From the NCBI RefSeq assembly GCF_001753675.2, contig NZ_MJUW02000096.1, forward strand, positions 1 to 32,210: a stretch of DNA of 32,210 nt. Direction: 5' to 3'. Both the position numbers and the translations under genes were made by a program. The notes under the pieces were generated by a model, which worked only from the letters and a program-made list of their open reading frames with translations, did no database searches and was not told where the DNA came from. Origin of the DNA: Candidatus Brocadia sapporoensis. GTDB lineage: Bacteria; Planctomycetota; Brocadiia; Brocadiales; Brocadiaceae. Shown one piece after another: positions 5,057 to 29,920 of the stretch (positions are counted from its first letter, which is position 1; every line of letters begins with the position of its first letter).

Positions 5057-6226
5057 CTATTTCAATTTCTGATAATAATCACTCAATATTTTTGCAATCT
5101 CTGGTCTTGTGAATGTTTGAGGCGGAGCTTGTCCTGCGCCGAGCATCCTCCTGACCTCTGTACCACTCAGGATGACGTGGTTGGATGAATCATGAGGGCA
5201 TGTCTTGTAAGAGGCCATACCGCTGCAAGCTTGACAGTAGAAGGTGTGGTCAAAAAATAATGGGGTAATTCCTATCTCCTGAGGATCAAATTCATCGAAG
5301 ATATAATGGGCATCAAATGTGCCGTAATAACTGCCGACGCCCGCATGGTCTCGTCCTACAATGAAATGGGTACAGCCATAATTCTTTCTCACGAGCGCAT
5401 GGAAGATGGCTTCCCTTGGTCCGGCGTACCGCATTGCAGCCGGGAAAACAGACAGCATGGCCCTGTCCTTTGGGTAGTATTTCTCTAAAAGTACCTCATA
5501 ACTCCTGATTCTGACATCTGCCGGTACATCATCACTCTTGGTTTCTCCTACGAGAGGGTGTAACAGGATGGCATCCACGATCTCCAGGGCACATTTCTGG
5601 ATATATTCGTGGGCGCGATGCACGGGATTACGAGTTTGAAAACCAACTACGCGTTTCCAGCCCTTTTTTACAAACGTATCCCTCAATTCTTGAGGATCCA
5701 TCCGGTATGACAAAAAATCAGAAGGCTTTGCCCGATTGACCACACTCACCTTGCCTCCAAGAAGGTATTCTCCCATAGTATAAACATAATCCACGCCAGG
5801 ATGTTTTCTGTCATCAACACCATAAACCTCTAACGATTCTTTGCGTTTGTCATGGTGAAAGATTTCTTCAAGGTGTAAAATTGCAATTACTTCATTGGCC
5901 CGATCTGTCAAAGCAATCTCTTTGCCCGGCTTGAGGCCTTCAGCCTCTTCTTTTGTTGCTGAGAGGACAATCGGAATTGACCACGGCAGCCCATTTGACA
6001 ACCGCATATTGTCCACGACATTGTCATAATCCGCTTTGCACATAAATCCTTCCAGAGGGCTCATTGCTCCAACGGCAATCATATCAAGGTCTGACATCTC
6101 GCGGGAATTTAGCTGGATTTTTTTCATGTCATAATGAGTTGCCTTATCCAACAGTATTTCCCGTTGTTCCGTGGATACAATCCGGTGAATAAGCTTTCCC
6201 CCATGCGGCGCAATGTTTTTAACCAT
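5057..6226 (-). CDS. sat: Sulfate adenylyltransferase (ATP sulfurylase), dissimilatory type
   Basis: Sat interconverts ATP plus sulfate with adenosine 5'-phosphosulfate (APS) plus pyrophosphate in the cytoplasm. At 389 residues it has the usual length of the monofunctional bacterial/archaeal Sat and no APS-kinase domain. The nucleotide-binding motifs [10 protein letters not shown] (197-206) and GRDHAGVG (291-298) are intact. A zinc-binding type cluster is formed by C331, C334, C343 and H350, a feature of Sat from sulfate reducers and sulfur oxidisers. The ATG follows AAGGAGA and AAGGAAAG ribosome sites that overlap the aprB stop region; the gap to aprB is only 6 bases. It is the last gene of the aprA-aprB-sat operon, so it supplies APS to, or drains it from, AprAB. 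The direction of the pathway in the cell cannot be decided from the sequence. Confidence 0.95.
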
Positions 6227-6232
6227 CTTTCC

Positions 6233-6562
6233 TTAATCTCCTTTCAACCATCGTGTCCGAATAATAAATTCCTCCTGGTGCCCTTCGGCATCCCAGACTG
6301 TCCAAATCGTTTTGTCGCGTTTTAACCGTGCTTTTAAGGAAGAGCCGCTACTGCATATCTGGAAAGGAAGTCTCAGCTCAATCGCCTGTACAGGGCATTC
6401 CTTCACACAACTGGCGCACGTCCAGCAAGCCGACTGGTCACGAATCGCTGCCTTCGTGTTTTCTTTGCGGTAGCACAGATCGCCCGGGCAGATGCGCTCA
6501 CATCGCGCCTCAGGTAATCCTTTGCAACCATTACAGATAGTTTCGTCAATGAAGATGCTCAT
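6233..6562 (-). CDS. aprB: Adenylylsulfate reductase beta subunit, short form
   Basis: This is the iron-sulfur subunit that passes electrons to or from the FAD of AprA during APS/sulfite interconversion. Taking the ATG at 6562, which overlaps the aprA stop as ATGA, gives 109 residues; a GTG at 6568 in the same frame is a less likely start. Two [4Fe-4S] motifs are present: C10..C13.......C21...C25P and C46..C49..C52...C56P. The following beta segment with IWTVWD and FIIRTRW resembles the middle domain of AprB. The protein then ends at RTRWLKGD, whereas classical AprB of sulfate reducers (about 150 residues) continues with a C-terminal arm of about 40-45 residues that wraps around AprA. The missing arm is a real difference, not a frameshift, since sat starts 6 bases later with proper ribosome sites. 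Confidence 0.88.
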   Translation of the reverse strand: MSIFIDETICNGCKGLPEARCERICPGDLCYRKENTKAAIRDQSACWTCASCVKECPVQAIELRLPFQICSSGSSLKARLKRDKTIWTVWDAEGHQEEFIIRTRWLKGD

Positions 6563-8235
6563 GAGCACAAAGGCCTTTCTATCATGAATATTTCATCCGT
6601 TTTTGGATTATAGACAGAATTAACAAATGTAAGCCATCGGCTGTTATCCTTTTCGGGATAATCAAACCGGGTCTGGTAGCATGCCCATCTCGTCTCTTTA
6701 CGGTATATCAGATGTTCTACCAATACCTTTGCGACATCAACCCGGTCGATACATTCCAATGCTTCGACCAGAGAATAATGATTTACGGCAAACAGGTCTT
6801 TCATACGGTCTTTGAGGCCTTTGAGTAATCGCCTTGCTTCCAGTAATCTTTCTTCATGAAGTGCGTAATTCATGGAGATTCCGCCAGCGTATTCATCCAT
6901 AATCTTTTGAAGTCGTTCCCTTGCCTCTGCCGGCGATATACCCGCTTTTTTTGTTAAAGGATGCAAAACCCTGGTTTTTTCCTTCCTGACCACATCTTCA
7001 TCTATAGTTATCAGGGGCACCCCTTTTATATCTTCCAGTGCAGTTGTTGCAGCAATACGCGCCTCAACCCAACTTCCGCTTACGTATTTCTTGGGTGCGC
7101 CCCCTGCTACTTCTCCGGCGGCATAAAGACCGGGGATTGTCGTTCTTCTGTCCTTGTCGATCCAGTACCCCGCCTGACAATGACCACCCACCAGGAAAGG
7201 TTCGGTGCCATAAATTTCCACAGGTTTCTTCCGCGGATTCATCTCTTTTGTTGCCCACAAAAGGATAATCTGAGGATTCATATTTAAAAAATCTTCCTTG
7301 AGTCTTCTCTCTTCCACTTCAGTTAACGTGGTTGTATTCAAAAAACAGGGACCACGGCCAATTTTCTTTTCCTCAACGGTTGCCAGAAGCCTGTGATGTG
7401 TCAGGCACTTATTCCCGCCCCAATGTTTATAATAGCGTTCCAGGTAGTCTTCTCCGCGTGCATTAATCTGTTTCGAATGTGCACCTACGGCGATGGTGCC
7501 AGTTGGCGCATTCACATCCTTTACCCGCAGGGCAATAAATCGATTTTCAAAACTCGTCATTTCTGCCCCAATCCGTATTCCCATAGCATATCCGGTTCCT
7601 GCATTCCAGGGGCAATACCACAGCAGATGCCGTGCTTCCCCTGTGTTATGCGGTTTATAGATACCTGAAGCTCCCCCGGTTGCAACGATTACGGCTTTTG
7701 CCCTGACAACATAAAAGATGCCATCCCGAATTCCGAAGCCAAACGCCCCGCAAACACGGCTATTGTCGTAAATAAAATTGGTTGCCACAACGCGATTAAA
7801 AACCTGGGCGGGTGTTTTTTGCACGGCTTCCGCTAGAATGGGTTTTAACCGTTCGCCAAAAATACGAATACTGCGTTTCCCACGCATCTTATAGGTGCCA
7901 TCTTCATTCTTTTCTATGGGCAACCCCATCTTTTCCACGTCTTTGACTACCTCATTAAGCCCCCGAACAATGCTGTAGACAAGATCCTTTCTGATAATAC
8001 CCTCAAACTGCCGCTCAACATATGCAACATAGGAATCAGGTGTTTGCCCCTCATGTAAGTATGCATTGATGGCATTCAGCCCCATAGCCAGACACCCACT
8101 GCGCTCGATGTGTGCCTTTTCCATGACAACCACCCGGCAGCCGGGAGAATTCTTGTAAATCTCCACTGCAGCAAAACACCCCGCTGCCCCGCCACCAATA
8201 ATCAATATATCAGTATCTATATGTAAAGTGCCCAT
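6559..8235 (-). CDS. aprA: Adenylylsulfate reductase alpha subunit (FAD)
   Basis: AprA is the catalytic flavoprotein that reduces APS to sulfite plus AMP, or runs in reverse in sulfur oxidisers. It belongs to the fumarate reductase/succinate dehydrogenase flavoprotein family. The N-terminal FAD-binding motif GGGAAG is at 14-19, followed by a conserved ERSG segment (44-47). ATGGASGIY (185-193) and GYAMG (215-219) belong to the FAD and capping region, and H352 in VGGHCQAGYW fits the active-site histidine region of AprA. The C-terminal FAD segment is GLYAAGEVAGG (369-379). At 558 residues it is about 80-90 shorter than typical AprA (about 640), in keeping with the shortened AprB. The operon contains no AprM, Qmo or Dsr genes in this window, so the redox partner is unknown. 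A fumarate reductase is the alternative family, but the aprB and sat neighbours settle the call. Confidence 0.93.
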   Translation of the reverse strand: MGTLHIDTDILIIGGGAAGCFAAVEIYKNSPGCRVVVMEKAHIERSGCLAMGLNAINAYLHEGQTPDSYVAYVERQFEGIIRKDLVYSIVRGLNEVVKDVEKMGLPIEKNEDGTYKMRGKRSIRIFGERLKPILAEAVQKTPAQVFNRVVATNFIYDNSRVCGAFGFGIRDGIFYVVRAKAVIVATGGASGIYKPHNTGEARHLLWYCPWNAGTGYAMGIRIGAEMTSFENRFIALRVKDVNAPTGTIAVGAHSKQINARGEDYLERYYKHWGGNKCLTHHRLLATVEEKKIGRGPCFLNTTTLTEVEERRLKEDFLNMNPQIILLWATKEMNPRKKPVEIYGTEPFLVGGHCQAGYWIDKDRRTTIPGLYAAGEVAGGAPKKYVSGSWVEARIAATTALEDIKGVPLITIDEDVVRKEKTRVLHPLTKKAGISPAEARERLQKIMDEYAGGISMNYALHEERLLEARRLLKGLKDRMKDLFAVNHYSLVEALECIDRVDVAKVLVEHLIYRKETRWACYQTRFDYPEKDNSRWLTFVNSVYNPKTDEIFMIERPLCS

Positions 8236-18587: not shown

Positions 18588-18658
18588 TGAAACGTGATGT
18601 TTAAGAACAATGAGTGGCACGGACACATTTGTTTTGTTCGTCGTGCCCGACTACTAAA

Positions 18659-19075
18659 ATGAATAAGTATATTCTTATAGACCACACTGCAGATATCGGA
18701 ATTGATGTCTTTGGCGCTTCATTGCAGGAATTGTTTGTCAATGCAGCGTTTGCATTATTTGATATCATCACAGACTTATCGAAAACGGAAGACAAGATCG
18801 CATATAAAATAAGTGTTTCCGGGATAGACAGGGAGCAACTCCTCGTCAGTTGGTTAAGTGAATTATTGTACCTGCACGATGTGAAAAATCTCTTGTTTAA
18901 GGATTTTTGTATTGAAGGCATTACGGACAATCAACTCAACGCAACCGTATGGGGCGAGGCATTTCGTGAGGATAAACATGTGATTAAAACGGAGATTAAG
19001 GCGGTTACTTACCATTGCCTGTCAATCATCCAGGAAGACCATCACTGGAAGGCACGGGTTATTTTTGATATTTAG
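18659..19075 (+). CDS. Archease, activator of the RNA ligase RtcB
   Basis: Archease is a small metal-binding protein that lets RtcB turn over repeatedly and widens its nucleotide use. The 138-residue product starts with YILIDHTADIGIDVFG, the typical archease N-terminus with its DHTAD signature, and ends with the conserved KARVIFDI strand. The ATG at 18659 is chosen because homology begins there; an alternative upstream start at 18614 would add 15 unrelated residues. No strong ribosome site is seen. The next gene, 93 bases on, encodes RtcB, which confirms the assignment. Many archaea and some bacteria pair the two genes in this way. Confidence 0.9.
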   Translation: MNKYILIDHTADIGIDVFGASLQELFVNAAFALFDIITDLSKTEDKIAYKISVSGIDREQLLVSWLSELLYLHDVKNLLFKDFCIEGITDNQLNATVWGEAFREDKHVIKTEIKAVTYHCLSIIQEDHHWKARVIFDI

Positions 19076-19168
19076 ACAGGAGCGAGTGTCCGTTTGTTCC
19101 AAGATTGTTTATCCATTGAATTGTATTCTGACCGCTGAGCACTTGTGCAGAGAAAGAGAGTGTGTTTG

Positions 19169-20620
19169 ATGACGGATGACAAATATAAAATTCAGAAGAT
19201 AGATGATTATCGTTGGCGTATCCCGCGGGAAGGAAAGATGCACGTGGAGGGCATTGTATACGCCGATGAGCATATGCTGAAGGAAATTCAGAAGGATGAA
19301 AGTCTGCAGCAGGTAATTAACGTTGCCTGTCTCCCTGGAATAATAAGGCATTCACTTGCAATGCCTGACATCCACTGGGGATATGGATTTCCTATTGGCG
19401 GTGTGGCTGCGTTTGATGTTGATGAGGGCGTAGTCTCCCCTGGTGGTGTAGGGTATGACATCAATTGTGGGGTAAGATTATTAAGAACCGGACTGCATCG
19501 TATAGAAATTATCAACAAGCTTGAGTCTCTCGTCAACACCCTGTTTGCCAATATTCCATCCGGTGTGGGGTCACACCGCAGGGATTTAAAGCTTTCTCAG
19601 CAGGAAGAAAAAAATGTGCTCAGGGATGGGGCTCGATGGGCAGTTTCTCAGGGTTACGGGACGAAAGAAGATTTGGAATACATTGAAGAGAAAGGTTGTA
19701 TCCGGGGGGCTGATCCTGAGCTGGTTTCAGATCGCGCCCTGGAACGGGGCCGGACGCAACTAGGTACGCTCGGTTCAGGGAATCACTTCGTTGAGGTCGG
19801 TTATGTGTCTGAGATATACGACGAGGAGATTGCCCGCGTATTAGGACTCGAGAGGGACGGGATTACCATTGTGGTGCACACAGGTTCCAGGGGATTGGGC
19901 TATCAGGTGTGTGACGATTTCCTCAAGGTTATGATTAATGCTTCCCGGAAATATAACATAGAGCTGTCTGACCGGCAGCTTTGCTGCGCTCCGGTCAATT
20001 CCCAGGAAGGCAAGGAGTACCTTGCTGCAATGGCTTGCGCCGCCAATTATGCATTTGCCAATCGGCAGGTGATTACCCACTGGGTACGGGAATCCTTTGG
20101 AGGTGCATTGCACATAAGTCCAAAAGAGTCCCAAATATCCCTGGTCTATGATGTGGGTCATAATATTGCAAAATTTGAGGAGCATATCGTGGGGGGTGAG
20201 AAGAGACGGTTATGCGTCCATCGGAAAGGGGCAACACGCGCATTTCCTCCCCATCACCCAAATATCCCGGACGTATATAAATCCGTGGGTCAACCAGTAT
20301 TAATACCGGGCGACATGGGGCGTTGTTCCTACGTGCTTGTGGGTACAGAGAAGGCATACACCGACACCTTTGGCAGTACGTGTCATGGTGCAGGGAGGGT
20401 TATGAGCAGGGGTCAGGCGACGAGATCGACCAAAGGGCGCAATATTGCTGAGGAACTGAAGGCAAAAGGCATCCTTGTCCGTGCCGACAGCCGGGCCACG
20501 CTCGTCGAAGAAGTATCCGAGGCATACAAGGATGTGACAGAGGTTGTGGGTGTGGTAGAACACGCCGGGATCAGTAAAAAAATAGTCCAGCTAAAACCGA
20601 TGTGTGTTATTAAGGGGTAG
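19169..20620 (+). CDS. rtcB: RNA-splicing ligase RtcB (3'-phosphate/5'-hydroxyl RNA ligase)
   Basis: RtcB joins RNA ends carrying 2',3'-cyclic or 3'-phosphate to 5'-hydroxyl ends, using GTP and manganese, through a guanylylated histidine. From the ATG at 19169 it has 483 residues, normal for the family. Metal and nucleotide residues are visible: D97 and C100 in YDINCGVR, N205-H206 in GSGNHFVE, H237 in HTGSRG, and H406 in STCHGAGR, the expected guanylylation site (H404 in the Pyrococcus enzyme). A GTG at 19145 would add eight residues but has no better ribosome site. With archease just upstream, this is an RNA repair pair, likely for tRNA or rRNA broken by ribotoxins or stress. There is no RtcR-like sigma-54 activator or RtcA in the window. 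Confidence 0.96.
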   Translation: MTDDKYKIQKIDDYRWRIPREGKMHVEGIVYADEHMLKEIQKDESLQQVINVACLPGIIRHSLAMPDIHWGYGFPIGGVAAFDVDEGVVSPGGVGYDINCGVRLLRTGLHRIEIINKLESLVNTLFANIPSGVGSHRRDLKLSQQEEKNVLRDGARWAVSQGYGTKEDLEYIEEKGCIRGADPELVSDRALERGRTQLGTLGSGNHFVEVGYVSEIYDEEIARVLGLERDGITIVVHTGSRGLGYQVCDDFLKVMINASRKYNIELSDRQLCCAPVNSQEGKEYLAAMACAANYAFANRQVITHWVRESFGGALHISPKESQISLVYDVGHNIAKFEEHIVGGEKRRLCVHRKGATRAFPPHHPNIPDVYKSVGQPVLIPGDMGRCSYVLVGTEKAYTDTFGSTCHGAGRVMSRGQATRSTKGRNIAEELKAKGILVRADSRATLVEEVSEAYKDVTEVVGVVEHAGISKKIVQLKPMCVIKG

Positions 20621-20920: not shown

Positions 20921-21586
20921 TTGAATACCCCGCACAATATCGACTCCTATGTCACAGACCGGTTTCGTATGGTGCAATACCAGCTTGTAAGTCGTGGCAT
21001 TCGTGACGAACGGGTGATATGGGCAATGTCCGAAGTACCCAGACACCTGTTTGTACCGGAATTATACCGTCATGCTGCATATGAGGATTGCCCTTTGCCT
21101 ATTGGTGAAGGGCAGACCATTTCGCAGCCCTATATGGTTGCCATCATGACGCAGTGTCTTGAATTAAAGGGGGGAGAGCAGGTATTGGAAATAGGGGCGG
21201 GCTCGGGATATCAGGCTGCAATCGTGAGTAAATTGGCAAGCCGTGTTTATACCATCGAACGACATGCAGCGCTTGCGACAAAAGCAAAAGGTGTTTTAAA
21301 GCAAATGGGATATGATAATATAACCGTAATCACAGGAGATGGAAGTCTGGGGTTACCAGAGAAGTCACCTTTCCATGGGATCATTGTCACAGCCTGTGCG
21401 CCTCATGTCCCGCGGTGTTTAGCAGATCAACTTGAAATTGGAGGACGGTTGGTAATACCTATAGGGAATCCTTATCATCAGGTATTACACCAGATGGTAA
21501 AACGGGAAAAGGGAATAGAAGACCGGAATGTTCTGGAGTGTGCTTTTGTACCACTCATTGGTGAAGAAGGCTGGAAGGAAGAATAA
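20921..21586 (+). CDS. pcm: Protein-L-isoaspartate O-methyltransferase
   Basis: Pcm uses S-adenosylmethionine to methylate isoaspartyl residues that form as proteins age, starting their repair. The 221-residue protein has the typical N-terminal RGI.DERV...VPRHLFVPE segment, the GQTISQP(Y) motif, the SAM-binding loop VLEIGAGSGYQAA, and the IIVTACAPHVP segment of the active-site region. The length is normal. The start is a TTG at 20921 with AAGGTG just upstream; internal ATG codons would cut into the conserved N-terminus. With FtsH, Lon, Usp and RtcB nearby it continues the macromolecule-repair theme, but it lies behind a terminator and is probably transcribed separately. Confidence 0.94.
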   Translation: MNTPHNIDSYVTDRFRMVQYQLVSRGIRDERVIWAMSEVPRHLFVPELYRHAAYEDCPLPIGEGQTISQPYMVAIMTQCLELKGGEQVLEIGAGSGYQAAIVSKLASRVYTIERHAALATKAKGVLKQMGYDNITVITGDGSLGLPEKSPFHGIIVTACAPHVPRCLADQLEIGGRLVIPIGNPYHQVLHQMVKREKGIEDRNVLECAFVPLIGEEGWKEE

Positions 21587-21708
21587 TCTTACAGCGAACA
21601 CAGGTTGTGGTATTACCATGACAAAGTTTTTTTGCAGGTTTTTTAGCACCTTCCTTTTTCCCATTGATAGGGGGTTTTGGTTGCAGCTTTGCTGCGTTAT
21701 GAAAGTAT

Positions 21709-21737
21709 TTGACCTGTTTCAGGATTTGTGTTAAAAT
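21709..21737 (+). promoter_or_regulatory. Sigma-70-like promoter of the ndk-like/MBL/gyrA operon
   Basis: TTGACC (21709-21714) and TAAAAT (21732-21737) are 17 bases apart and each matches the consensus at five of six positions. Transcription would begin near 21744, just before the long leader hairpin, and about 145 nt before the first start codon. Confidence 0.6.
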
Positions 21738-21755
21738 CTTCCCATTGAAAATTCT

Positions 21756-21836
21756 AAGGAGAAAGGGTGAAGGGGAGAAGTTTAAGAGGTTTGCGAAAGG
21801 CTTTTCCACTTCACTCTTTCTCCTTAATCTTTTTTA
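21756..21836 (+). promoter_or_regulatory. Leader hairpin with T-tract (possible attenuator)
   Basis: The arms 21756-21780 and 21801-21825 pair over 25 positions with two G/T pairs and one mismatch, around a 20-base loop. The descending arm is followed by AATCTTTTTT. The shape is that of an intrinsic terminator, but it lies between a good promoter and the first gene of the operon, about 50 bases before its ribosome site. It could be a regulated terminator. It could instead simply end read-through from pcm, in which case the promoter upstream is false. No anti-terminator or known riboswitch fold was recognised. Confidence 0.6.
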
Positions 21837-21888
21837 CTGATGTAGTGCATTTTTAACTTAATTCTGTTTTTGGAGAAGAAAGAAACGT

Positions 21889-23088
21889 ATGGCGGACGAA
21901 TTGACCTATGCATTGATTACCCCCTACAGCCTTTTAAAAAGCCGCACCGGCGGTATTTTAGGCCGGCTGCTTTCGCTATCAAATCTGGATTTTGTGGGCG
22001 TGACCATGTTTGCCCCGAGTGATGCCTTTGTTGATAAATATTGCGCTACCATTGAGGAACAAGACTGCAAGCCATCATGGAAAAAGGCCATGAAAGACTA
22101 TATTAACAGCAATTTCCGGAGGGTGAACAAGTTTGGGATTACCAACAGGATGGTATTGCTTTTTTTTAAAGGCCCCCGTGCCCTTGAAAAATTGAAGGAT
22201 GAGGTGATCGGGCCGATTACCAGCTTTCAGGGGCACACCATTCGGGGGAGCTTCGGAGATTTTGTAGAGAGTTCGGATGGCAAAATCGAATATTTTGAAC
22301 CAGCAGTTGTATCTGCGGCAGACCATCGCACGAATGATAAACAGTTAGCCCTGTTTGCTGAATATTTGTCAAACGATGGTGGGGTTTTAGAGGACATTGT
22401 CAAGTTTTCCGAAGGAGTGAAGGCCGAAACAACCCTGGTCATTCTCAAACCCTTTGAGGAACAAAGTCCGTTACCAGGAAATATGATTGATATGTTTTCA
22501 AGGACGGGTTTATTCATTGTCGGAATTAAGCTTTTGAGAATGAGTATTGCGCAGGCAGAGGATTTTTACGGCCCGTTAATCAACATCTTTCGGGAAAAAT
22601 TGAAGCCCAAACCAGAGAAAATCGCTGAAAAGCTCAAAGAAGCTTTAAAATCTGTTTTAACCTTTGAAGTGCCGAATGCGATTATGAATAGCCATGCAGA
22701 GCAGTTGTCAGAGCAGCTTAAAGATATGAATGCAATGAACGAATTTAACAAAATTGTGCAGTACATGACGGGTCTGGACCCTGAAAAATCAAGCCCCGCA
22801 GATAAGAAAAGACCAGGAACCGCCAGATGTCTTGCCTTGTTATATCGTGGCCCGGATGCCATTCATAAAATACGAAATATCCTCGGGCCTACGGATTCAA
22901 AGAAGGGCGAACCCGGCAAGGTTCGCAGAATTTATGGTGAGGATATTATGAAAAATGCAGCCCACGCCTCAGATGCTGTAGAAAATGCCGAACGTGAACG
23001 GAAGATTATTGGGCTGTGGGATAATAAGGGACACTGTGAGCTGAAAGAGATGATCGAAAATTATTTGCGGTCAAAGGGATCATGCTGA
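21889..23088 (+). CDS. Tandem nucleoside diphosphate kinase-domain protein with one apparent active site
   Basis: The 399-residue protein contains two NDK-like domains. The first spans about 5-160 and has the GHTIRGSFG segment (115-123) equal to the PGTIRG loop of NDK. However, the usual IKPD lysine is replaced (LITPYS) and the position of the catalytic His reads PAVV (138-141), so it lacks the phosphate-accepting histidine. The second spans about 178-385. It keeps K187 in ILKPF, GKVRRIYG (343-350), and the active-site KNAAHASDA motif with H359. It therefore probably has phosphotransfer activity only in the C-terminal half, exchanging phosphate between NTPs and NDPs. The second domain also carries a long helical insert (about 235-310). 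Canonical NDK is a single domain of about 140 residues. GGAGAAG precedes the ATG. The gene overlaps the next by 7 bases and leads into gyrA. Confidence 0.82.
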   Translation: MADELTYALITPYSLLKSRTGGILGRLLSLSNLDFVGVTMFAPSDAFVDKYCATIEEQDCKPSWKKAMKDYINSNFRRVNKFGITNRMVLLFFKGPRALEKLKDEVIGPITSFQGHTIRGSFGDFVESSDGKIEYFEPAVVSAADHRTNDKQLALFAEYLSNDGGVLEDIVKFSEGVKAETTLVILKPFEEQSPLPGNMIDMFSRTGLFIVGIKLLRMSIAQAEDFYGPLINIFREKLKPKPEKIAEKLKEALKSVLTFEVPNAIMNSHAEQLSEQLKDMNAMNEFNKIVQYMTGLDPEKSSPADKKRPGTARCLALLYRGPDAIHKIRNILGPTDSKKGEPGKVRRIYGEDIMKNAAHASDAVENAERERKIIGLWDNKGHCELKEMIENYLRSKGSC

Positions 23089-23756
23089 TACAAAAGATAA
23101 ATGTAGGTCCTTTGCAGGTGTGTTGTTACCTTGTTATCGACAAGGAAGCTGCTGAAGTGATGGTTATTGACCCTGGCGCAGACGAGGGAATGATTATTGC
23201 TTTTTTAAAAAAACAACAACTGCTTCCAAAAAGTATTGTAATCACCCATGGGCATGGCGATCATATCGGCGCCAATGCCGAACTAAAAAAATCCTTTCCT
23301 GATGTGCATATCTGCGTTCATGAAGCAGACCAGGACATGCTCCCTTATCCGGCAAAAAACCTTTCCATCCTTGCCGCTTTTTATGGAGGCACAACGGTGA
23401 GGTCGCCGGTGGCGGATCGATTGCTGAACGATGGGGATGCGGTTGCTGTCGGAAAATATACCTTTGAAATCATTCATACACCGGGACACACGCCAGGTGG
23501 AATATGCCTGTACTATAACGATCCGAAGGATGAAAACCCCCCCGTGCTGTTTTCCGGGGATACCCTTTTCAAAGAGAGTATTGGCAGAACGGACTTTCCA
23601 GGCTGTAATCAAAAAAAACTCATACAGGCCATCAAAGAACGATTGTTTGTGCTGGATGAAAGAACGATCGTGTATCCAGGTCACGGGCCATCAACGACGA
23701 TAGCGGAAGAGAAAAAAAATAATCCTTTTGTTGCTGAGGTAATCATCCATGGCTGA
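23082..23756 (+). CDS. Metallo-beta-lactamase-fold hydrolase (glyoxalase II-like)
   Basis: This 224-residue cytoplasmic protein has the metal motif THGHGDH (H56, H58, D60, H61), then HTPGHTPGG with the next metal histidine, FSGDTLF with the bridging aspartate, and a final YPGHGPST histidine, all as in glyoxalase II-like hydrolases with two metal ions. It probably cleaves a thioester or a related small substrate; the true substrate is unknown. The length matches the short YcbL-type family rather than full glyoxalase II. The start ATG overlaps the stop of the ndk-like gene (ATGCTGA), and its own end overlaps gyrA by 8 bases, so translation of the three genes is likely coupled. Confidence 0.9.
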   Translation: MLIQKINVGPLQVCCYLVIDKEAAEVMVIDPGADEGMIIAFLKKQQLLPKSIVITHGHGDHIGANAELKKSFPDVHICVHEADQDMLPYPAKNLSILAAFYGGTTVRSPVADRLLNDGDAVAVGKYTFEIIHTPGHTPGGICLYYNDPKDENPPVLFSGDTLFKESIGRTDFPGCNQKKLIQAIKERLFVLDERTIVYPGHGPSTTIAEEKKNNPFVAEVIIHG

Positions 23757-26262
23757 AAGAAGAGAAAACATAAAAGAGTTATTCATTGAAGAAGAGATGA
23801 AGGATTCGTATCTGAGCTATGCCATGAGTGTCATCATGAGCCGTGCGCTTCCCGATGTAAGGGATGGGCTAAAACCATCGCAGAGACGTATTCTGGTGGC
23901 CATGAATGATCTTGGGCTTGGTCCCCGTTCCAAATTCAGAAAATGCGCCAAGATTGCAGGTGATACCACAGGTAATTATCATCCACATGGTGAACAGGTG
24001 GTTTATCCCACCCTCGTTCGCATGGCGCAGGATTTTAATTATCGATATCCACTGATTGAGGGGCAGGGGAACTTTGGCTCTATTGATGGAGACCCTCCTG
24101 CAGCAATGCGTTACACGGAAGCCCGTATGACTGAAGCGACAATGATTATTATGGAGGATTTGGAGAGAGAAACTGTTGATTATGTGCCCAATTATGACGA
24201 TACCCGGACGGAGCCGGTTGTCCTTCCTTCCAAGTTCCCCAATTTACTGTGTAACGGATGTTCCGGTATTGCGGTCGGCATGGCCACGAGCATTCCACCT
24301 CACAATGTGAATGAGATCTGCGATGGAATTGTTGCAGTTATTGACAACGCAGAGATCACCGTTGATGAATTGATGAAGATCATCAAGGGGCCTGATTTCC
24401 CCACGGGGGCTTTAATCTGCGGTATGGAAGGGATCAGAGAGGGATACCGGACAGGGCGCGGAACGATTATCGTCCGGGCACGGGCGCACACAGAAACATC
24501 AAAAAGCGGGAAAAAGAGCATTGTTGTGACGGAGATACCCTACCAACTGAACCGTGATAATATCCTGGAGCGGATTGCTGTATTAGTGCGGGAAGATCAG
24601 CTTAAAGGTATTTCAGATATTCGCAACGAAAGTGATCGGGACGGAAGCCGTCTGGTTATAGATCTGAAGAAAGGGGAGGACGAAGAAGTTGTTCTCAACC
24701 AACTTTATAAACACACAAAACTCCAGGATAGTTTCAGCATTATTATGATCGGCCTGATCAACAATCGGCCGGAAACGCTCAACCTGAAGCAGATGTTGGT
24801 CTACTATATTGAGCATCGAAAAGTTGTCATCATCCGAAGAACAAAATATTTACTGGGGAAGGCTCAGGCCAGGGCTCATATCCTGGAAGGGTTAAAGATC
24901 GCCCTTCAAAATATTGACAGAATCATCCAGTTGATCAAGACCTCAGATTCTATTGAAACGGCGCGACGGGGACTCATGAGCGAATTCTCCCTCTCGGAAC
25001 TACAGGCAAATGCCATTCTGGATATGAAACTTCAGAGGCTGACGGGACTTGAACAAGGGAAAATCGAAGAAGAGTATAAAAAATTATGTGCCGATATCAA
25101 GGGATATCAGGCGATCCTGTCTGATGAAAAGTTGGTGCTGAATATTATTAAGAAAGATATTGAGGAAGTGAAGGAACGCTTTGGTGACAAACGCCGCACG
25201 GAGATCGTTAGCGCCGTTACGGAGTTGAATATGGAAGATCTTATTGCCGAAGAAAGCGTCGTCGTTATTATTAGTCACGAAGGCTATATTAAGCGATTAC
25301 CCATTGCCTCATACCGGAAGCAGCACCGCGGCGGCAAAGGTGTCTCCGGTGCTGATATGAAAGAAGGGGATTTCATCGAGCATCTGTTTGTAGCTTCAAC
25401 CCATGATTATATCCTGTTTTTTACTGACCAGGGCAGAGTTTACTGGCTTAAGGTTTACGATATACCGCAAATGGCCCGAACGGCTAAAGGAAGAGCGCTT
25501 ATCAATTTGCTTGAGTTAAAAGAAGACGAAAACGTAACTTCTCTCATTCCCATAAGGGATTTTGACGAACGGCAACTGGTTATGGCCACCAGGAATGGAA
25601 TTGTGAAAAAAACGGTGCTCAATGCCTACGGAAATCCGAAAAAGGGCGGTATTATCGCCATTAACCTGGATGAAGAGGACAAGTTGATCGGGGTGAAATT
25701 AACCAATGGCAAACAGGATATTATCCTTGGCACCGAACAGGGAAAAGCCATGCGTTTTTCAGAAGAGGACGTCAGAACCATGGGGCGCGTTACACACGGG
25801 GTAAAAGGAATCACTCTTAAGGAGAACGATAAGGTGCGGGATATCGTGATCGTTGATGAGCAGGCAACGCTGCTAACGGTTTGTGAAAAAGGGTTCGGAA
25901 AACGTACCGACTTTGCCGAATATCCCGCTCATCGCCGGGGTGGACAGGGTGTTATTAATATTAAAACTACCGAGAGAAACGGAAAGGTTGTTTCGCTGAT
26001 TGATGTGAGAGACGAAGACGAACTGATCATGATCACTGCGCGGGGACAGGTTATCCGTACCCCGGTTAATACCCTTCGCACCATTGGAAGGAACACGCAG
26101 GGGGTTACTCTCTTTTCCATTGAGGAAGGAGACAAGCTAGTCTCTGTTGCGCGTGTTGTTCCGGAAGAGACGAAGGCAGAAGGGGGAGCCGAAGAAACGG
26201 TAAACGAAGTGGAAGAGGAGAAACCCACGGATGAAGGTGCACCGGAGGATGCTCATGAGTAA
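23749..26262 (+). CDS. gyrA: DNA gyrase subunit A
   Basis: GyrA is the breakage-reunion subunit of the A2B2 gyrase that adds negative supercoils with ATP. The 837-residue protein has the normal layout: winged-helix/tower domain with the catalytic Y122 in AAMRYTEAR, coiled-coil arm, and a C-terminal beta-pinwheel. The GyrA-box is QHRGGKG (about 522-528), a one-residue variant of QRRGGKG, which favours GyrA over ParC. A second blade repeats HRRGGQG, and the protein ends in an acidic tail. The quinolone pocket is unusual: numbering agrees with E. coli, and residues 81-87 read G-E-Q-V-V-Y-P, so S83 is Gln and D87 is Pro. It is the last gene of the ndk-like/MBL/gyrA set, starting inside the MBL gene. 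gyrB is not in the window. Confidence 0.95.
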
Positions 26263-29185: not shown

Positions 29186-29920
29186 CATAAGCACTAACTT
29201 GTTTTATTAACAAATTTTATTCATCATGGTATTTTTATATCAATCATCTTGCCAGCTTATAGGAGGACAAAGCCATGATGAAGATTGGGACATTCTCAAA
29301 ACCCTTTTACCAAACGATTGGAAAAGTTTAGCTGTAGATACAAATGCGTTAAAAGGCTTGCGCAAGGATAAATCAGAAGAAGCCATTAAAATAGTTCATA
29401 AAAAACTTAAAAGACATACAAGCAAAAAGGGTATTGAACTGAAACCGGAGACCTTTATTTATGCCAAGTACGCAATTGTGTTCGCCACGTTTCCTGGAAA
29501 TCAATTTACCGCTTTTGATATCTTAGAATGGTATAGAATCCTATGGCAAATTGAGCTGGCCTTTAAAAGATTTAAACAAATCGCGCAATTTGGATATTTA
29601 CCGAAATACGATGATGATAGTTCGAAATCTTGGCTTTACGGCAAATTATTCGCTGTTCTTTTAACAGAAAGATTAATAGATTTTGCCAAGTCCTTCCCCC
29701 CGGGGATACACCATGTTCCAGTCAGAGGACTCAAAGCCAATGGAGTAAACTTACTTTTATGTTTCATCAAGTAAAACGGGTTATAGAACCGGCGTTATTA
29801 TTACAGGAAGTTCTTTACTCCTGGAACGGCATTGCTTGCTCTTTAGCAGAAAAACCAAGAACCCGAAATATGCAACTCTCAAAATACTTCGAGTTCACTT
29901 AAAACAAGTTAGCGCTTAAG
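29186..29920 (+). mobile_element. Internally deleted IS4-family element
   Basis: Terminal inverted repeats are visible: TAAGCACTAACTTGTTTTA at 29188-29206 and its complement at 29900-29918, with one mismatch in 19. The right repeat overlaps the end of the transposase reading frame. AGGGG occurs directly outside both ends (29181-29185 and 29919-29923), a possible target duplication, although the left copy is separated from the repeat by two bases. At about 730 bp the element is roughly half the length of a full IS4-type sequence, so it is a non-autonomous derivative. Confidence 0.7.
29226..29902 (+). pseudogene. Truncated and frameshifted IS4-family transposase
   Basis: The reading frame begins with a piece resembling the IS4 transposase N-terminus (DEDWDILKTLLPNDWKSLA, then KGLRKDKSEE). 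It passes directly into the C-terminal third (GIELKPETFIYAKYAIVFATFP, then FDILEWYRILWQIELAFKRFK). The central region holding the first two DDE aspartates is absent. In the C-terminal YREK signature (Y-x2-R-x3-E-x6-K) the Arg is Leu (YRILWQIE), while Y, E and K remain. Near 29750 the frame changes, and the last 45 codons, with FHQVKRVIEPALLLQEVLYSW, continue in another frame to 29902. The protein cannot catalyse transposition but could be mobilised by an intact relative. Confidence 0.75.

Follow-up and report, generated by a model that had tools for sequence, protein, structure and literature searches.

The DNA stretch analyzed here (the window) comprises 32,210 nt of the genome of Ca. Brocadia sapporoensis, and Pfam domains of the PCMT, NDK, metallo-beta-lactamase and gyrase A families were identified at the locus of interest, all features of which lie on the + strand. 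The pcm gene (PCMT domain) has its stop at 21586 and is followed by an operon whose first gene encodes an ndk-like protein of 399 aa (21889..23088, PF00334 in two stretches), with a gene for a metallo-beta-lactamase-fold protein (23082..23756, PF00753) and gyrA (23749..26262, PF00521 and PF03989) downstream. The ndk-like protein shares 94% identity with its counterpart in Candidatus Brocadia sp. WS118 and 92% with that in Ca. Brocadia pituitae; with its two NDK stretches it is much longer than an ordinary NDK, and full-length relatives were also found in other families of the order. In genome G008 (L011) the gene has a frameshift near its start, which is either real or an assembly error. Elsewhere in the window, adjacent archease and RtcB genes (PF01951 and PF01139) are present at 18614-20620, ORFs at 5057-8235 on the - strand resemble, judged by eye, those of ATP sulfurylase and the two APS reductase subunits, and a 182-aa ORF at 29226-29774 is taken, also by eye, to resemble the C-terminal part of an IS4-type transposase.

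Between pcm and the ndk-like gene, a sigma-70-type promoter with an extended -10 is predicted at 21709..21737, consisting of the -35 TTGACC (21709-21714), a 17-nt spacer and the TG-extended -10 TAAAAT (21732-21737), which together agree with the consensus at 10 of 12 positions. The transcript would be expected to start about 7 nt past the -10, at 21744, leaving a short stretch to 21754, only about 10 nt, ahead of a long hairpin with a purine-rich 5' arm (21756..21780) and a pyrimidine-rich 3' arm (21801..21825). The arms are 25 nt long and pair at 24 of 25 positions (22 Watson-Crick pairs, two G.U pairs and one mismatch), positions 21755-21826 alone fold at -39.0 kcal/mol, and a 201-nt stretch has a folding z of -2.58, with 2 of 200 shuffles equally stable. 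This is the sole inverted repeat detected within 21500-22000. The stem is followed by AATC and a run of six T (21830-21835), and a Shine-Dalgarno-like GGAG (21873..21876) precedes the ndk-like gene in the arrangement TTTGGAGA..ATG, which hairpin-bearing and hairpin-free leaders have in common. The promoter, the hairpin and the T-run were each found at the place given in the preliminary description, the distances of which are correct as well.

Regarding the promoter, the bare pattern is not found more often than by chance (34 matches vs 31.9 +/- 5.2 in shuffled sequence), and its support comes from comparison with relatives. The ndk-like protein was searched in 59 related genomes, and 27 genomes of the family have a readable start codon with upstream DNA; the other six of the 33 family genomes were left out, either due to a gene cut by a contig edge (G003, G014, G019) or to the lack of a full-length match (G011, G017, G030). 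All 27 readable leaders have the promoter ahead of the ndk-like gene, with TTGACC in 26 and TTGATT in one, a count that is partly circular for the -35 since 26 of the 27 promoters were located by the string TTGACC; this does not apply to the AAA upstream (27/27) or to the -10 (TGTGTTA..AT), neither of which served to locate the promoters. The -10 has the form TG(T/C)TA...T across these leaders, an 18-nt spacer gives the better fit in G018, and in G029 and G031 a larger insertion has moved the promoter to about 355 nt upstream. Judged by this conservation, the promoter is a real one and the operon's own, which bears out the proposal that it drives the operon and would place the hairpin in the mRNA leader, as had also been suggested.

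The same comparison bears on the idea that the hairpin terminates the upstream pcm transcript, which had been considered since pcm ends 170 nt before it on the same strand. The conserved promoter, however, intervenes between the two, and by tblastn pcm was found upstream of the ndk-like gene in one of 42 loci, that of the window (some loci being shortened by contig ends), while eight other genomes retain the hairpin without pcm. As pcm adjoins the hairpin in this genome only, termination of pcm by the hairpin is extremely unlikely. A closer terminator-like site on the + strand, a stem followed by a T-run at 21604-21622 and 18 nt past pcm, would, as a pattern match only, be more plausible as the end of the pcm transcript.

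The hairpin is far less widespread than the promoter. It is present in nine of the 27 leaders, those of the window, G009, G002 and G008 of the same genus, G016 and G023 (g7), G027 and G032 (g10), and G012 (g3), while three leaders have an unrelated inverted repeat and 15 have neither. All nine hairpin leaders have a TTGACC-to-ATG distance of 177-180 nt, as against 88-100 nt in six hairpin-free Brocadia genomes, whose leaders are thus about 80-90 nt shorter. These six, out of ten same-genus relatives, show a gap at the hairpin and retain the promoter, contrary to the expectation that close relatives with the same gene would carry the hairpin. When three filled leaders are aligned with four empty ones, promoter and start codon are the same and the hairpin, the T-run and a short tail form one single gap. 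The inserted segment, delimited by this gap and by a covariance model described below, extends over 21755..21847 with ends uncertain by several bases, and the repeat ends are too worn for a target-site duplication to be read. The hairpin is thus dispensable, six close relatives doing without it, and is not part of the basic design of the operon. In a tree of the ndk-like protein all nine hairpin rows fall within one group of 18 rows (g1, g3, g7 and g10), the support of which is not strong (81/85), and another nine rows of the family fall outside that group; the tree is compatible with a single gain and later losses, the alternative being repeated gain. In G024, G029 and G031 (g10) the place of the hairpin is occupied by a different inverted repeat of the GCCACTAAGACACGAAG type, which is itself dispersed (43 matches with at most one mismatch, none in the reversed control). 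This second leader repeat, GCCACTAAGACACGAAG...CTTTGTGCCTTGGTGGC, is seen in L016 (G024), L014 (G029) and L018 (G031), and two of these genomes have further nested insertions there.

Similarly, sequences related to the hairpin are dispersed at other places. A covariance model built from the nine leader hairpins (R1) and run over the 33 family genomes recovered the nine leaders (E at most 1e-15) and, in other places, further palindromes of which the best has E 2.6e-6; those dispersed palindromes that were fetched have a 5' TGTGTAAGGAAGGAGAAAGGG in common, and in many of them the stem is followed by a T-rich stretch, at the position of the T-run in the window. The pattern TGTGTAARGAAGGAGAAAKGGNGAA, allowing at most three mismatches, gave 28 matches in the 33 genomes and none in the reversed control, three of the 28 being ndk leaders and at least one, inside an ORF (G012:C284), probably a chance match. 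A shorter pattern, TAAGGAGAAAGGGG with one mismatch, was tried as a family marker and was no commoner than its reversed control, so that the family is separated only by the longer pattern and the covariance models.

An independent test was provided by a second covariance model (R2), built from 13 copies located elsewhere in related genomes and containing no ndk leader. Run over the window and 26 loci, R2 recognized eight of the nine hairpins in leaders, with E values between 1.5e-11 and 7e-5, including that of the window (21731-21852, E 1.2e-6), and matched the G012 copy weakly (E about 0.09); in the 18 hairpin-free loci it matched no leader, the sole match (E 0.38) lying outside. In the scan of the 33 genomes, 21 had R2 matches at E <= 1e-4 away from ndk, at 51 distinct places that include the 13 training copies; eight genomes, namely G011, G015, G022, G025, G020, G013, G021 and G018, gave no match at E <= 0.01 and can be regarded as a natural negative control. 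The genome of the window has one other clear copy only (G000:C27:10649-10788, E 2.3e-7). The repeat is about 90 nt long in the window and about 140-160 nt elsewhere, and has no conserved coding capacity, the sole possible ORF not being conserved. Since the hairpin is recognized by a model free of leaders and recurs at 51 other places, hairpin and T-run are, by their match to the family, one ORF-less, MITE-like palindromic repeat scattered through the Brocadiaceae, a class defined by a short and strong inverted repeat, multiple dispersed copies (here across 21 of the 33 genomes) and both filled and empty sites. In the literature on anammox, Brocadia and planctomycete repeats, MITEs and GxxExxY genes, a description of this repeat was not found in titles and the openings of abstracts.

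The preliminary description had suggested that the hairpin could work as an attenuator for nucleotide metabolism and gyrase together; as a regulated attenuator it would be an intrinsic terminator in the leader opened by a signal. Promoter, leader hairpin, T-run and operon are indeed common to this locus and to known leader attenuators; the promoter lies upstream of the hairpin, as far as the sequence alone can tell, the stem is stable, and a run of five to six T is kept 3' of it in all nine hairpin leaders. However, AATC parts the stem from the T-run, and no competing anti-terminator fold was found in the leader, where arm-arm pairing reaches -37.2 kcal/mol and the best alternatives -10.9 and -12.3, the best leader fold being about -14.5 with either arm blocked and -46.3 unblocked. 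Nor did the window match any Rfam-type sensor, and a conserved leader peptide was likewise not found: the sole possible leader ORF, starting with GTG at 21767 behind AAGGAG, was rejected on account of the loss of its start codon in G009, G016 and G027. Lacking a second fold and a leader peptide, and with about 10 nt ahead of the hairpin, the locus does not support classical attenuation. Unlike a leader attenuator, moreover, the hairpin is not conserved with the operon, being absent from 15 and replaced in three of the 27 leaders with the same promoter, and it is dispersed at unrelated places. Regulated attenuation is therefore considered improbable. It is still less probable, and indeed very doubtful, that promoter, stem and T-run constitute the gene of a small RNA of about 90 nt with read-through into the operon; this layout would suit such a gene, but the window has no Rfam match at gathering scores, and the promoter is the operon's own in the hairpin-free relatives.

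Regarding conservation, the arms of the window copy are 0.80-0.90 identical to those of five copies from other genera, compared with 0.37-0.42 at four-fold sites of the ndk-like gene, and the outer 12 bp of the stem show 0.92-1.00 identity over all 36 pairs; the remaining leader, at 0.61-0.90 in gapped alignments, is likewise somewhat constrained. In a comparison with 81 fetched stretches containing dispersed copies, several of them overlapping, each arm of all nine leader copies is closest to that of another leader copy, a pattern that would fit a single insertion inherited under constraint; the appearance of constraint could also arise by gene conversion from other copies. The suggested search of relatives for covarying stem changes was answered in part: four pairs have changed on both sides, yet 54 of 500 shuffles reach as many, so that the covariation is weak. 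An excess of G.U over A.C in the leader stems (24 to 1 cells) was considered as a sign of RNA selection and dropped because dispersed copies are biased alike (51 to 6, counted from the table). As the stem has been kept while synonymous sites are nearly saturated, the hairpin probably does something. The opposite view, that an old insertion without effect has been retained by chance, would accord with a hairpin that is dispensable, limited to certain lineages and part of a scattered repeat, but it sits poorly with arms far more conserved than four-fold sites and with leader copies closer to each other than to dispersed ones; we regard it as unlikely, though deserving of serious weight.

Thus, the locus is probably best understood as a MITE-like repeat retained downstream of the promoter, where it would be transcribed as a leader hairpin tuning the amount of operon mRNA. 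The repeat may have inserted once, long ago, downstream of the promoter and ahead of the start codon of the ndk-like gene, in the ancestor that Brocadia shares with three related genera, and would have been passed down and kept since, with the loss of the hairpin in some lineages and its exchange for another inverted repeat in others. Lying downstream of a conserved promoter, it would form a very stable 5' leader hairpin and act after transcription has started, either as a substrate of RNase III, for which the genome has a gene, or as a 5' stability element, with some, perhaps weak, premature termination at the T-run, so that the amount of operon mRNA would be tuned. Our best guess among the remaining candidates assigns the largest share to RNase III cutting or mRNA stability, the other candidates being partial termination at the T-run and no effect.

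Such a role would have precedents. The closest documented parallel is the NEMIS or Correia element (CREE) of Neisseria, like the leader repeat a short, scattered inverted-repeat element, a copy of which is described in N. meningitidis as lying between the native promoter and mtrCDE, being part of the mRNA and being cut by RNase III (PMC2649163); Neisseria belongs to a different phylum, and the comparison is one of likely mode of action, not of membership, the leader repeat being known here from its sequence. MITEs such as ERIC, RUP, SPRITE and Nezha are described as ORF-less, mostly intergenic and palindromic and as nested with other repeats, all of which resembles the leader repeat, and stabilization of mRNA, its degradation and terminator-like behavior are listed there for MITE transcripts (PMC3733652, PMC10969869). 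REP elements (GTAG/CGTC) are a further likeness, being extragenic palindromes that are reported from Planctomycetes too (PMC3733652); they are 20-40 bp long, bear a tag at one of their ends and come with RAYT genes, and the leader repeat is set apart from them by its length of about 90-155 bp.

Unlike MITEs generally, three copies related to the repeat flank or carry remnants of GxxExxY genes (PF13366): arms of the AAGGAGAAAGGG type enclose a broken GxxExxY gene in G004:C12 (L122) and adjoin broken ones in G030:C127 (L177) and G029:C142 (L183). In a sample of 30 loci (L226-L255) from more than 150 PF13366 matches listed, inverted repeats across the ORF with a score of at least 16 were found at 21, compared with none of 210 same-sized stretches of the window, a lenient control because the window is mostly coding DNA. 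GxxExxY genes of the Brocadiaceae thus in most cases lie between inverted repeats of the ACCACAAAGACACAAAGGACACAAAG type (at 21 of the 30 loci examined), and the leader hairpin may therefore be an ORF-less relative of the GxxExxY-bearing palindromes, which is a lead and not a result. A mobile repeat derived from GxxExxY (PDDEXK_3) elements might then have been domesticated as a leader RNA element setting the expression of the ndk-like, metallo-beta-lactamase-fold and gyrA genes, selected in four anammox genera and replaced in one of them by another palindrome that belongs to the same broad class; this extended scenario is tentative and, in our judgment, rather improbable.

For the biology of these bacteria, what had been supposed to be an attenuator would become a case of a mobile repeat that the leader of an essential gyrase operon has retained. 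Because the promoter is common to relatives with the hairpin and to those lacking it, the effect of the insertion is directly measurable. The link of the palindromes to GxxExxY genes would, should it prove correct, indicate the parent element of a planctomycete class of repeats.
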